Part shown: positions 27,056 to 33,820 of the stretch, piece after piece
Layout: the number at the start of each line of letters is the position of its first letter
Numbering within the stretch: position 1 is the stretch's first letter
NCBI RefSeq assembly: GCF_030123065.1
Contig: NZ_CP126093.1
Span: 3,912,001-3,976,000, forward strand
Reading direction: 5' to 3'
From: Neobacillus sp. DY30
Lineage (GTDB): Bacteria; Bacillota; Bacilli; Bacillales; Cytobacillaceae
DNA length: 64,000 bases
Notes under the pieces: model-generated
Database searches by the model: none
Seen by the model: the letters and a program-made list of their open reading frames with translations, nothing else
What the model was told of the DNA's origin: nothing
Program-made: the position numbers and the translations under genes

Positions 27056-27073
27056 TAGTTAGTATACTAACTA
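27056..27073 (-). promoter_or_regulatory. Candidate MarR operator, 18-bp perfect palindrome
   Basis: TAGTTAGTATACTAACTA is fully symmetric and lies just upstream of the marR-type start codon. Length and TTAGTATACTAA core fit MarR-family operators. Confidence 0.7.
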
Positions 27074-27172: not shown

Positions 27173-27979
27173 CTAATTTTTTGCAAATTGTCCATCGACT
27201 TCAACGGTTTCAAATATATTGATAAAGGCTTTGTCATCATGGAAGCGGACTATTTTTTTTATTTGCATTGTTTCGTAACGTGTTACCACCATCATTAAAA
27301 TCTGCTTTGGTTCCTTTGTATAGCCGCCAAAACCCTCTGTGATGGTGATGCCTCGATAGATTGAGTCTAATAAATCCTTCCGAATAACTTCTCCTTTTGT
27401 TGTAACAATCTGCATTGTTAATTTGATGTGATTCGTGTGAATGGTATCAATCATTTTACCTGTTAAATAAATCGACAACAGCGTGTATAATGCGATATTC
27501 CAATTGAAAGCAGCACCTGAAATTAAAACAATGACGCCGTTCATCGCCGTCAGTAGAAGACCGATACTAACATTACTTGTGCGTGAAAGGATAATCGCAA
27601 TGATATCCAATCCGCCAGAGGTGCCGGAATACTTCAAAATCACGCCAACTCCAATACCACCTATGATTCCTCCGAATATCGCCGACAGGAGTATATTGTC
27701 AGTTACAGGAACGATTGGCAATAGATATAAGAAAACGGAGAGTGATACCACACAAATCAGTGTATTGACCGTAATCATCTTTCCAAGCTTAAAGTATCCC
27801 AAAATGAGTAATGGAATATTGAGCAAGAGATTCATTAAACCAATATCAAATGGAGTGACTAACCCAATCAAAATCGCAATACCACTTATTCCACTGCTCA
27901 AAATCCCATACGGAACCAGAAAGAAGTTAAAGCCAAATGCAACAATCAACGAACCTACAACAACAATTAAGTTTTTCAT
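27173..27979 (-). CDS. YitT family membrane protein
   Basis: 268 residues from ATG 27979 (GGAG 9 nt upstream); a TTG at 28006 would add nine residues. Five to six N-terminal hydrophobic helices (NLIVVVGSLIVAFGFNFFLVPYGI, GISGIAILIG, GVILKYSGTSGGLDIIAII) are followed by a soluble C-terminal domain of about 80 residues (DUF2179-type) ending RFHDDKAFINIFETVEVDGQFAKN. Members are cytoplasmic-membrane proteins of undefined transport function. Here it lies downstream of a T-box leader, which suggests control by charging of a specific tRNA. Confidence 0.88.
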   Translation of the reverse strand: MKNLIVVVGSLIVAFGFNFFLVPYGILSSGISGIAILIGLVTPFDIGLMNLLLNIPLLILGYFKLGKMITVNTLICVVSLSVFLYLLPIVPVTDNILLSAIFGGIIGGIGVGVILKYSGTSGGLDIIAIILSRTSNVSIGLLLTAMNGVIVLISGAAFNWNIALYTLLSIYLTGKMIDTIHTNHIKLTMQIVTTKGEVIRKDLLDSIYRGITITEGFGGYTKEPKQILMMVVTRYETMQIKKIVRFHDDKAFINIFETVEVDGQFAKN

Positions 27980-28084
27980 ACCGGTAAAAACTCCGTTTCC
28001 AGACAAAATAATTTAGAACATAAAATAGTTAGGATTTAAAAGAATAGTCGATTCATTATGGATGTACCTGACTATTTTTTGTAT

Positions 28085-28352
28085 AAAAAAACTCGCCCCA
28101 AAATAGGGACGAGTTCTTGCTCGCGTTACCACCCATATTCCGCAAGTTTCGCAACATGAAACATTCCGCTCACAGTCAACGTACCATCATACGTTTTCCC
28201 TTGTAACGGTGGAAATCCCTCAAAGCTACTCCGAACAGCTTTGCATTCGCAGATGATTTTTAGAAAAAAAAGTGTCCCTAGGCTCTCACCAACCTCAACA
28301 CCAAAGGAACCAGATTCTTTTCTTACTTTTACTCGTCACTGTTTGAAATTAT
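28085..28352 (-). promoter_or_regulatory. T-box riboswitch leader upstream of yitT
   Basis: On the minus strand the T-box sequence GGGTGGTAACGCG (28122-28134) is followed by a rho-independent terminator, ACTCGTCCC / GGGGCGAGT plus seven T (28085-28114). Upstream are the expected elements: CAGTGACGAG and an AGTA motif at the base of stem I, GGTTGGTG in the distal loop, and a stem III-like AAAGCT/AGCTTT hairpin. The UGGU bulge would pair with a tRNA whose discriminator is A. The specifier is not certain; the 3' strand of the specifier loop reads CUAAAAAUC, allowing AAA (Lys) or AUC (Ile) by eye. A second weak hairpin (28043-28076) lies before yitT. Confidence 0.85.
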
Positions 28353-28359
28353 TAATAGT

Positions 28360-28389
28360 AATCTACCAGAGGGCAAATAAAGTTGTCAA
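28360..28389 (-). promoter_or_regulatory. Promoter of the T-box leader
   Basis: Minus strand TTGACA (28384-28389), 18-bp spacer, TAGATT (28360-28365). It would start the transcript about 10 nt before stem I of the T-box. Confidence 0.6.
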
Positions 28390-30792: not shown

Positions 30793-31025
30793 TCATATTT
30801 AGAAAAGTAACGGGGCGTAAAAATGACCAACAAATTGGATGTTAAAATTTGCGGGTCTATTTTTGTTGATATAAAGAGATTTTGGTTGCTTGCAATTATA
30901 AGAATATTTAAAGATACATACGGAAAGGTTTTTGGATATTTATGTTAAAATGGCAGTAGCAGAACCTTTGAAATAAAAATATAAAGTTGCTCAGTTCAAA
31001 AATTGCTTGAAAAAGGATGCGTATC

Positions 31026-32414
31026 ATGCCGATTAATTCTTTTAAGAACTATCCGATGAGCTGGAAGCCATCGATTGATAAAACAGAAAAGCCCATTTAT
31101 AAAGCACTCGCAGGGCAATTGGAACAGGATATAGTTGATGGGGTTTTATTACCTGGAACAAAACTCCCCCCACAGCGAGAACTTGCTGATTATTTGGATT
31201 TAAATGTAAGTACCATTTCAAAAGCTTTTAAAGTGTGTGAATTAAAGGGCTTGTTAAGTGCAACTGTTGGAAGTGGGACATTTGTATCGTATGATGCGTT
31301 ATCGAATGCGTATTTACTTGAAGATACAAAGCCGAAACACTTAATTGAAATGGGAGCAACACTTCCAGATAATGCTTCTTACGAGCCACTGCTGTTACAA
31401 CTTAAAAGCATGCTGCAAGAAACAGATTATGAAAAATGGTTTGGTTACGGTCGTGCAGGCGAAAGCATTTGGCAAAAAGACGCTGCTATAAAGCTAATCC
31501 GAAGAGTTGGGTTAGAAACCACCGTTGATCACATTTTATTTGCCAATGGTGGTCAAAATGCAATTGCTGCTACACTTGCAAGTCTTTGTAAGCCTGGAGA
31601 ACGCATTGGTGTTGACCAGCATACGTACCCTGGCCTAAAAACTGTTGCAGCGATGCTTAATGTACAAATAGTTCCGATAAAATCAGAGAACTATGAAATG
31701 AGTCCAACGTCTTTTGAATATGCATGTAAAAATGAAAATATTAAAGGCATTTACTTGATTCCAGATTATCATAATCCGACTTCTTCCTTTATGTCCGTAG
31801 AGAATCGAAAAATGATTGCAGCAATTGCCAAAAAGTATAATCAGTTCATTATTGAAGATGGCTCGTACCATCTTCTATGCAAAAAAACACTGCCAGCAGT
31901 CGCATCATTCGCCCCTGAACAGGTCATCTATATTGCAAGTTTATCGAAAGCATTAGCACCAGGCTTACGACTGGCCTATGTAGTAGTCCCTAGTCAATTC
32001 AAAAAGCCCATTTCAAAGGGACTTTATAACTTAAATATAACAGTTTCCCCGTTATTAGCAGAACTGACAGCACGTACGATTGTTTCGAATGAATTTGAAG
32101 TCTTAATTGAGGGTCATCGGAAACAAACCATTCGCAGAAACCAAGTCGTAAAAAAATATTTGGCAGACTATACGTGCCTTGGTGATGAGACAGGCATTTT
32201 TCGTTGGCTGTTATTACCAGGCAAGATTACAGGTGCCGAATTTGAATCATTAGCAGCGCATCAGGGGGTACAAGTGTATGCGGCTGAACGTTTTGTAGTT
32301 GGAAATAGTTGTCCAGATAGAGCTGTTAGGGTTTCTGTCTGTGCACCTAAAACAATTGAAGAGCTTGAACAAGGGTTGATAATCCTTAAACGTTTGTTGG
32401 ACGATCTTAGCTAA
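31026..32414 (+). CDS. MocR/PdxR-type regulator (GntR HTH fused to aminotransferase fold)
   Basis: 462 residues from ATG 31026, chosen because AAAGGA lies 8 nt before it; another ATG at 31017 overlaps that site. The N-terminal GntR winged helix is LPPQRELADYLDLNVSTISKAF (about 48-69). From residue 110 it has the fold-type I aminotransferase domain with the PLP-lysine in IYIASLSKALAPGLRLAYV and the cofactor Asp/Tyr region IYLIPDYHNPTS. Such regulators sense PLP or an amino acid. The MFS exporter gene downstream in the same direction is the likely target, although a terminator lies between them. Confidence 0.88.
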   Translation: MPINSFKNYPMSWKPSIDKTEKPIYKALAGQLEQDIVDGVLLPGTKLPPQRELADYLDLNVSTISKAFKVCELKGLLSATVGSGTFVSYDALSNAYLLEDTKPKHLIEMGATLPDNASYEPLLLQLKSMLQETDYEKWFGYGRAGESIWQKDAAIKLIRRVGLETTVDHILFANGGQNAIAATLASLCKPGERIGVDQHTYPGLKTVAAMLNVQIVPIKSENYEMSPTSFEYACKNENIKGIYLIPDYHNPTSSFMSVENRKMIAAIAKKYNQFIIEDGSYHLLCKKTLPAVASFAPEQVIYIASLSKALAPGLRLAYVVVPSQFKKPISKGLYNLNITVSPLLAELTARTIVSNEFEVLIEGHRKQTIRRNQVVKKYLADYTCLGDETGIFRWLLLPGKITGAEFESLAAHQGVQVYAAERFVVGNSCPDRAVRVSVCAPKTIEELEQGLIILKRLLDDLS

Positions 32415-32423
32415 TATTGTTTG

Positions 32424-32454
32424 CCATACAATTATAATATTGTGTGGTTTTTTT
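32424..32454 (+). terminator. Terminator between MocR regulator and MFS gene
   Basis: CCATACAAT pairs with ATTGTGTGG (one wobble), followed by TTTTTTTGT, ten nucleotides past the regulator stop. Confidence 0.85.
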
Positions 32455-32524
32455 GTACGTGTTATGATGATTCAAATCTAGTTGGAGGTAATAGAGTTAA
32501 TTTTCCTAGAAAGGTAGGTTATAT

Positions 32525-33820
32525 ATGTCACACCAAGATAATGTTAAAGCGTTAGACGCCCAATCCGTTCGGTTACAAAGCTACATTCATTCTTCAGTAC
32601 AACAAAAATCGTTATACAAACGTACATTACTTGTTGTAAGTATTTCACAAATTTTAGGTGGTGCAGGGTTAGCAGCAGGCGTTACAGTAGGTGCACTTCT
32701 TGCACAACAAATGCTCGGGACTGATGCGTTTGCTGGACTTCCTTCAGGTTTACTAACTCTAGGTTCGGCAGGAGCAGCTTTATTTGTTGGGAAACTATCT
32801 CAACGTTATGGTCGTCGTACAGGTCTATCAACTGGTTTTATGATTGGTGGACTTGGAGCAATAGGGGTCATTATTTCAGCGATCATAAATAGTGTTTTCC
32901 TTTTATTTACTTCCCTACTTGTTTATGGTGCAGGGTCAGCAACAAATTTACAAGCTCGTTATGCGGGTACGGACTTAGCAAGTAGTAAGCAGCGAGCGAC
33001 TGCCATTAGTATTACGCTGGTTTTTACTACATTTGGTGCGGTAGCAGGTCCAAATTTAGTAGATGTGATGGGTGATTTCGCCCTTTCTATTGGTGTTCCA
33101 TCACTTGCAGGTCCTTTCATTTTAGCAGCCGCCGCATATATCTTAGCAGGTCTTGTCCTTTTCAGTTTGCTACGTCCCGATCCATTCGTTATTGCTAGAA
33201 TGATTGAAGCAACCAACCAAAAACCTAGTGATAAAGGACATTTGGTAGCAACTGAACATACTGAAAATAAAAGAGGCATCATCGTTGGTGCAACGATTAT
33301 GGTTCTTACTCAAATTGTAATGGTAGCTATTATGACCATGACACCCGTTCATATGATGCATCATGGACATAGTTTGGGTGCAGTAGGACTTGTTATTGGA
33401 TTTCATATAGGTGCCATGTATCTCCCTTCACTCATTACAGGTTTCCTCGTTGATAAGTTGGGGCGTACGGTGATGGCTATTGCTTCAGCTACTACGTTAC
33501 TTCTTGCAGGTTTACTATCATCATTTGCACCAGGTAATTCCATGGTTTTTATGGTAATCGCTCTATCATTACTTGGATTAGGATGGAATTTTGGTTTAAT
33601 AAGTGGGACAGCGCTTATTGTTGATTCGACTGAAACTGCCACACGGGCAAAAACACAAGGTACAGTGGATGTTTTAATTGCGTTGTCAGGAGCTGCTGGC
33701 GGATCATTGTCGGGAATGATTGTGGCAGGTTCAAGTTATCCAACATTATCTTTTGTTGGAGGAATTTTGTCCTTATTACTAATCCCAGTGGTGATATGGT
33801 CTCGTGGAGGTAAAAAATAA
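32525..33820 (+). CDS. MFS transporter
   Basis: 431 residues with about 12 hydrophobic helices. The MFS A-motif-like segment GKLSQRYGRRTGLSTGF (loop 2-3) and the second-half counterpart GFLVDKLGRTVMAIAS are present. A polar N-terminus of about 38 residues precedes helix 1. ATG has AAAGGTAGG upstream. Exporter of unknown substrate. Cytoplasmic membrane. It is adjacent to the MocR-type regulator and followed by the 20-bp tandem repeat array. Confidence 0.88.
   Translation: MSHQDNVKALDAQSVRLQSYIHSSVQQKSLYKRTLLVVSISQILGGAGLAAGVTVGALLAQQMLGTDAFAGLPSGLLTLGSAGAALFVGKLSQRYGRRTGLSTGFMIGGLGAIGVIISAIINSVFLLFTSLLVYGAGSATNLQARYAGTDLASSKQRATAISITLVFTTFGAVAGPNLVDVMGDFALSIGVPSLAGPFILAAAAYILAGLVLFSLLRPDPFVIARMIEATNQKPSDKGHLVATEHTENKRGIIVGATIMVLTQIVMVAIMTMTPVHMMHHGHSLGAVGLVIGFHIGAMYLPSLITGFLVDKLGRTVMAIASATTLLLAGLLSSFAPGNSMVFMVIALSLLGLGWNFGLISGTALIVDSTETATRAKTQGTVDVLIALSGAAGGSLSGMIVAGSSYPTLSFVGGILSLLLIPVVIWSRGGKK

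Follow-up and report, generated by a model that had tools for sequence, protein, structure and literature searches.

The stretch of DNA analyzed here (the window, 64,000 nucleotides of Neobacillus sp. DY30, contig NZ_CP126093.1, positions 3,912,001 to 3,976,000) carries on its minus strand a promoter, a T-box-like leader and a gene for a YitT-family membrane protein. The features, in window coordinates, are the following.

28360..28389, minus strand: promoter, TTGACA - 18 bases - TAGATT, from a consensus scan
28102..28348, minus strand: isoleucine T-box leader in eroded form, from Stem I to the 5' arm of the terminator (RF00230, 54.3 bits)
28293..28306, minus strand: part of Stem I without the AG bulge, which reads AGAGA where the leader is intact; changed alignment columns 50, 52, 53, 54 and 58
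28255..28257, minus strand: predicted specifier codon AUC (Ile), from an offset rule within the same genome and alignment with intact leaders
28243..28252, minus strand: 3' strand of the K-turn, CTGCGAATGC replacing CTCCGAGATGC (columns 108 and 112)
28122..28134, minus strand: T-box motif GGGTGGTAACGCG with UGGU, read from the sequence
28087..28118, minus strand: intrinsic terminator, -20.2 kcal/mol, equalled by none of 200 shuffles
27173..27979, minus strand: yitT, 268 aa, PF02588 membrane part and DUF2179 domain, start at 27979 as in orthologues

An earlier, sequence-only reading of this DNA had proposed a T-box leader in front of yitT, with its T-box motif, terminator and promoter, and yitT as the only gene behind it. 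All of this was borne out; the next gene on the minus strand, a marR-like gene, starts 133 bases past the yitT stop. Just upstream of that gene, at 27056-27073, is a perfect 18-base palindrome, TAGTTAGTATACTAACTA, that looks like a candidate operator of the marR-like regulator. Elsewhere in the window, positions 31017-33820 hold a MocR-like gene (GntR and aminotransferase domains) followed by an MFS transporter gene on the same strand. A weak hairpin had also been noted between leader and gene, at 28043-28076; the stretch does fold moderately well (z -2.6, equalled by 5 of 200 shuffles), but no such hairpin forms at the corresponding place in the closest relative, and it is probably a product of chance.

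The leader matches the Rfam T-box model over the full length of the latter (model 1-219; E 1.1e-10 with 1501 bases searched), though its score lies below the curated gathering cut-off of 93 bits and no match is returned when that cut-off is applied. The 6.14 Mb genome contains 26 RF00230 matches, 22 of them above the cut-off; the window leader is the lowest, the second lowest having 80.5 bits. Tandem T-boxes occur in the same genome before trpE (L008/L011, G000:C1:4121872-4122410) and before a thrS (L016/L019, G000:C1:1945962-1946450), both genes being named by eye. The description of the window leader as full-looking does not hold, as it scores below the cut-off and as the AG-bulge AGAGA and the K-turn 3'-strand GAGA, invariant in 17 aligned intact leaders of yitT orthologues, are gone. 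Stem I thus lacks part of the usual set of K-turn, AG bulge and apical loop, with the apical-loop GGUG still there, and the leader has retained a T-box motif with a UGGN bulge and the terminator/antiterminator alternative. Judged by its sequence, we class it as a decayed T-box homologue, a predicted rather than a proven working member of the family.

Between the two specifiers originally considered, AUC (isoleucine) stood and AAA (lysine) did not. In T-boxes of this genome the specifier is usually found nine bases ahead of the K-turn GA[GA], a rule that recovers a codon for the amino acid expected from the gene behind in 20 of 25 leaders when any GA[GA] is counted and genes are named by eye, with at least one of the 20 successes dubious (ilvB, L024, with the codon at another place) and with hisS, pheS, proC, one thrS and proB as the misses. 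Applied to the window leader, the rule gives AUC, and this codon is in register with the intact orthologous leaders, 16 of the 17 aligned having AUC and one CUC. The CUC leader, L113:2627-2905 of Paucisalibacillus sp. EB02, would specify leucine, likewise a branched-chain amino acid. Both the rule and the alignment speak against AAA, which in the Rfam alignment sits, by our reading, under the GAA of the model. The expected discriminator base A also proved right: the motif has UGGU, which fits the A found in the genome's own tRNA-Ile with anticodon GAU (two of six copies read).

The conservation of this arrangement was followed through YitT orthologues. A scan of named genomes gave 48, the nearest named relative being that of Neobacillus niacini NBRC 15566 (96% identical), and further samples at E 1e-100 or better came from the genus (11 of 61 genomes, own included), an order sample (7 of 397 genomes, own included) and the family of Sporosarcina sp. 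HYO08 (58 of 261 genomes; 30 loci used of 60 matches). Removal of 13 repeats from 95 loci gave the 82 rows of a YitT tree, and two later repeats (L209 = L105, L194 = L083) reduced these to 80 loci. The leader is intact in 18, eroded in 2, present as remnants in 13 and absent in 47, with Rfam run on 46 of the 80, the others judged by an upstream motif search and remnants by reading the sequence. The same leader does occur before yitT orthologues: the 18 intact leaders stand directly upstream of yitT in several genera and score 118.4-141.4 bits, all above the cut-off. The eroded pair consists of the window leader and its sister (L069/L118, 57.1 bits), and L123 alone among the remnants put through Rfam gave a score (35.6 bits). 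Intact, eroded and remnant leaders all fall inside one YitT-tree clade of 43 rows (41 loci; SH-aLRT 95), and none was found in the 39 tree rows outside it. The DY30 genome encodes 12 YitT-family proteins above the Pfam cut-off, and no T-box motif was found upstream of the other 11. By these sequence comparisons the leader belongs to this yitT, and the link is real and conserved. A BsrG-type RNA match (108 bits, cut-off 55) was also observed near one yitT orthologue, at L190:32-290.

A second gene recurs at these loci. Among the 48 named loci, nine have a BrnQ-type carrier gene immediately behind yitT and in the same orientation (one a fragment, L078), beginning about 11-16 bases past the yitT stop where the start is clear; among the 80, distinct near-full-length brnQ genes directly follow yitT in 12 (with the frame broken in L198) and fragments in four more (L074, L078, L089, L185). 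The two carriers tested, of L070 and L079, score 418 and 414.8 bits with TIGR00796 (cut-off 243.4). This operon-type BrnQ is only 40-47% identical to the carriers found behind a T-box alone and 30-41% identical to the three BrnQ proteins of the DY30 genome, and the window holds no trace of brnQ. Further operon-type BrnQ proteins are encoded elsewhere in the L116 genome (G482:C11:466450-467730, 64% to that of L070) and the L103 genome (G479:C4:1615274-1616548, 54% to that of L070). Pairs of yitT and brnQ also occur without a T-box, at L084 and L103 outside the T-box clade (absence by motif only) and at L207 inside it, which suggests that the pairing has its own history and is not a mere by-product of the leader. 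Within the clade, near-full-length brnQ follows yitT at 9 of 18 intact-leader loci versus 1 of 23 without an intact leader (Fisher p 0.0007, uncorrected for kinship, with the latter group taken as 25 rows, two repeats included). The idea that T-box decay follows brnQ loss was set aside, a kinship-corrected independent-pairs test being not significant with 5 pairs. At seven of the 18 loci with an intact leader brnQ does not follow yitT, and loss of this gene alone thus fails to explain the decay; at six of the seven (L072, L090, L113, L122, L210, L212) the next gene that is clear runs in the opposite direction, and the switch there seems to serve yitT alone.

We also rejected a role for YitT as a BrnQ substitute, since a BrnQ-family match is present in 60 of 61 genus genomes, including all 11 that bear yitT. 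A leader match stands directly before brnQ in at least 16 of the 50 yitT-less genus genomes (by eye from coordinates), and no T-box motif was found upstream of BrnQ in 24 of the 26 loci in the 11 yitT-bearing genomes, the fragments L181 and L182 being left out. Three of these 24 (L169, L175, L176) have a GGTGGAATCAC string 356 bases upstream that was not counted because the DY30 genome (L175) has no T-box match there. The contrast, with Fisher p 0.05 two-sided and 0.02 one-sided, uncorrected for kinship, gives only a hint that a T-box before brnQ is commoner in yitT-less genomes of the genus.

YitT might also be a passenger caught between leader and carrier gene, the T-box having served brnQ and YitT having a function unrelated to amino acids. 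The closest leaders elsewhere, among the matches listed, stand before brnQ, then before ilvA and ileS; brnQ is concentrated at intact-leader loci as given above, kinship ignored; and yitT outlasts the decay of its leader. These three points speak for a passenger. Such a gene does not readily account for the intact leaders that lack brnQ, for the yitT-brnQ pairs that lack a T-box, or for the brnQ-less intact pair L072-L186, in which a leader 81% identical has persisted at dS 1.41 while fourfold sites have fallen to 46% identity. We consider this alternative unlikely, though it is the one that survives best, and prefer an isoleucine T-box inherited together with yitT, whose sensor in the window is now decaying.

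The decay is uneven along the leader. An alignment of 17 of the 18 intact leaders has 122 invariant columns, of which the window leader has changed 17: Stem I accounts for 11 (of 49), the middle for 6 (of 43) and the antiterminator/terminator for none (of 30); L118 has changed 18 (7, 7 and 4, respectively), including the specifier column, and any intact member left out in turn has changed at most 8. Five changed columns are common to the window leader and L118, an indication that decay had set in by the time the two split. Between the window and L069, dN is 0.025 and dS 0.513, and identity is 69% at fourfold sites, 75% in the leader and 71% in Stem I, a test of decay that uses this one close relative within a comparison of 15 pairs of our choosing. 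The intact pairs with brnQ retain leader identities of 96% at dS 0.44 (L081-L087) and 93% at dS 0.72 (L081-L187). A conserved YitT next to a Stem I that diverges at about the fourfold-site rate suggests that the protein is under selection while the sensor drifts. Retention of the specifier, UGGU and terminator suggests that some response may remain.

These retained parts invite the view that the window leader is a still-working isoleucine switch of unusual shape that serves yitT alone, the changes in Stem I being tolerated. AUC and UGGU are kept, the invariant antiterminator/terminator positions are untouched, and six intact leaders seem to serve yitT alone. Against this, none of the 17 intact leaders varies in the AG bulge and K-turn that are lost here, the score is the lowest of 26 in the genome, the divergence of Stem I is near-neutral and the sister leader L118 is altered at both specifier and antiterminator. 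We judge a working switch to be improbable, and decay of an inherited sensor to account better for the leader as it stands.

Relatives show a parallel dismantling of the leader. Ten other loci (L071, L082, L088, L114, L116, L120, L123, L125, L126, L127) have core-deleted leaders upstream of yitT, in which the sensor core is lost, promoter and terminator are kept and 23 to 141 bases separate the end of the terminator from the gene; the T-box motif persists in L071, which has extra leader sequence, L114 and L123, and is absent in the other seven. The promoter that precedes these remnant leaders is the same as that in the window. Scattered remnants were recognized by eye at L077, L078 and L089. 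In six of the ten (L082, L088, L120, L125, L126, L127) a 5' stub, GACGAG, is complementary to CTCGTC in the 5' arm of the terminator, and the pairing is worth -6.7 to -7.4 kcal/mol versus -14.5 to -16.3 for the terminators alone; we rejected these short leaders as a new switch, the stub pairing being too weak to claim antitermination.

Leader kinship bears on where the window leader came from. Among the matches listed, 26 loci without yitT comprise 17 with BrnQ by tblastn (one partial) and, by eye, 6 with ilvA and 3 with ileS; the brnQ leaders among them are 72-79% identical to the window leader over part of its length. In a tree of 35 leaders (17 of yitT, two of them eroded, 11 of brnQ, 4 of ilvA and 3 of ileS) the yitT leaders form one group (support 95/95), adjoining two brnQ leaders (89/82) and apart from those of ileS (97/100). 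On this sequence evidence the yitT leaders share one origin. The earlier reading had named as a refuting case a leader that elsewhere precedes a synthetase gene lost here; this was not seen, yitT being the first gene after the leader at all 18 intact-leader loci. That an orphan T-box from another transcription unit came to lie before yitT by chance or rearrangement, as the damaged leader and the lack of a synthetase or biosynthesis gene behind it might suggest, is hardly credible given the same leader directly before yitT in 18 orthologous loci of several genera and its single origin in the leader tree.

YitT-family proteins are common, and none has, to our knowledge, a known substrate. The window protein scores well above the curated cut-offs in both domains (PF02588, 199.6 bits versus 24.3; PF10035, DUF2179, 65.4 versus 22.8). 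In the AlphaFold model mean pLDDT is 55.7 and 145 of 268 residues are under 50; the membrane part is unusable, and the structural comparison covers the PII-like part only. There, DUF2179 adopts a PII-like fold: PstA, DarA and GlnK are among the nearest structures to residues about 179-268 of the model, at Z 10.5-12.0 (50 rows listed). By sequence, the domain matches a DUF2179 domain of solved structure, 3hlu (E 0.00039). Matches to CTP synthase sequences (E about 0.4) were taken as chance, and NCBIfam NF043063 (34 bits, cut-off 550) gave no assignment. Among the fold matches listed is 2ns1, GlnK on the ammonia channel AmtB; by analogy with this PII protein that regulates a transporter, a gated transporter is plausible for YitT, and the PII-like domain would perhaps gate its membrane part. 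Judged by its genomic associations, this YitT, with its PII-like domain, probably functions in branched-chain amino acid transport. The proposal that it is tied to the amino acid of the specifier thus stands in part. The link to an amino-acid-sensing leader is conserved, and the yitT-brnQ pair points independently to branched-chain amino acids; the window leader, being in erosion, is weak evidence for present isoleucine control, and the T-box may have served brnQ equally.

Taken together, we think it quite likely that an isoleucine T-box was inherited with yitT, that its sensor is now decaying and that YitT acts in branched-chain amino acid transport. The ancestral unit would have been promoter, isoleucine T-box and yitT, in some cases with brnQ. 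In the intact form, working as other T-boxes do, uncharged tRNA-Ile(GAU) would be bound at two places, AUC pairing with its anticodon and UGGU with its ACCA end, favoring the antiterminator, so that isoleucine shortage leads to transcription of yitT, and of brnQ where present; intact relatives would accordingly be induced by isoleucine starvation. In the lineage of DY30, where brnQ is absent, Stem I and the middle of the leader appear to be decaying with little or nothing to constrain them, while the promoter and the antiterminator/terminator part persist. The window leader today most likely acts as an attenuator, inducible weakly if at all, with some readthrough into a still-selected yitT, and yitT expression would be low and mostly uninduced. 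A bolder version, which we put forward tentatively and hold as somewhat doubtful, is that this YitT branch transports isoleucine or branched-chain amino acids, or else assists BrnQ as its PII-gated partner, that it was recruited to an isoleucine T-box regulon, and that lineages then repeatedly deleted or eroded only the sensor, keeping promoter and terminator and turning a switch into a fixed attenuator.

A conserved isoleucine T-box with a recurrent brnQ partner offers a specific, testable prediction for one branch of YitT, and the decaying switch, together with intact relatives that carry brnQ, would tie yitT to branched-chain amino acid supply. At this locus one riboswitch can also be followed in natural stages, from intact through eroded and sensor-deleted to gone. 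Our literature search, with the TBDB tables and the supplements of T-box surveys outside its range, found no paper tying a T-box, isoleucine or branched-chain amino acids to YitT.

In relation to known systems, the yitT leaders resemble the isoleucine class of T-boxes (RF00230) found before brnQ, ilvA and ileS in Bacillales in architecture, AUC specifier, UGGU and terminator switch. They differ in that the gene behind them is of the YitT family, and the window leader in its eroded sensor and a score below the family cut-off. Two papers describe a T-box before brnQ in B. methanolicus (PMC4342826) and an isoleucine T-box before a LIVCS carrier in B. anthracis, the latter within a survey in which 8% of T-boxes sit before genes of unknown or unrelated function (PMC2494555). 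PMC4342826 also reports a T-box at B. methanolicus cstA1 that its authors think residual and no longer in control of cstA1, putting this down to rearrangement. The window leader likewise seems left over, but it was inherited with its gene and is decaying in place. A parallel on the protein side is provided by MocR-YczE pairs, in which, according to PMC4944035, a DUF161 membrane protein is likewise tied by regulation to amino acid metabolism; its authors propose that the protein has a transport role, especially for amino acids. In these pairs the regulator is a protein and YczE is without DUF2179, whereas yitT of the window has an RNA regulator and its product carries DUF2179.
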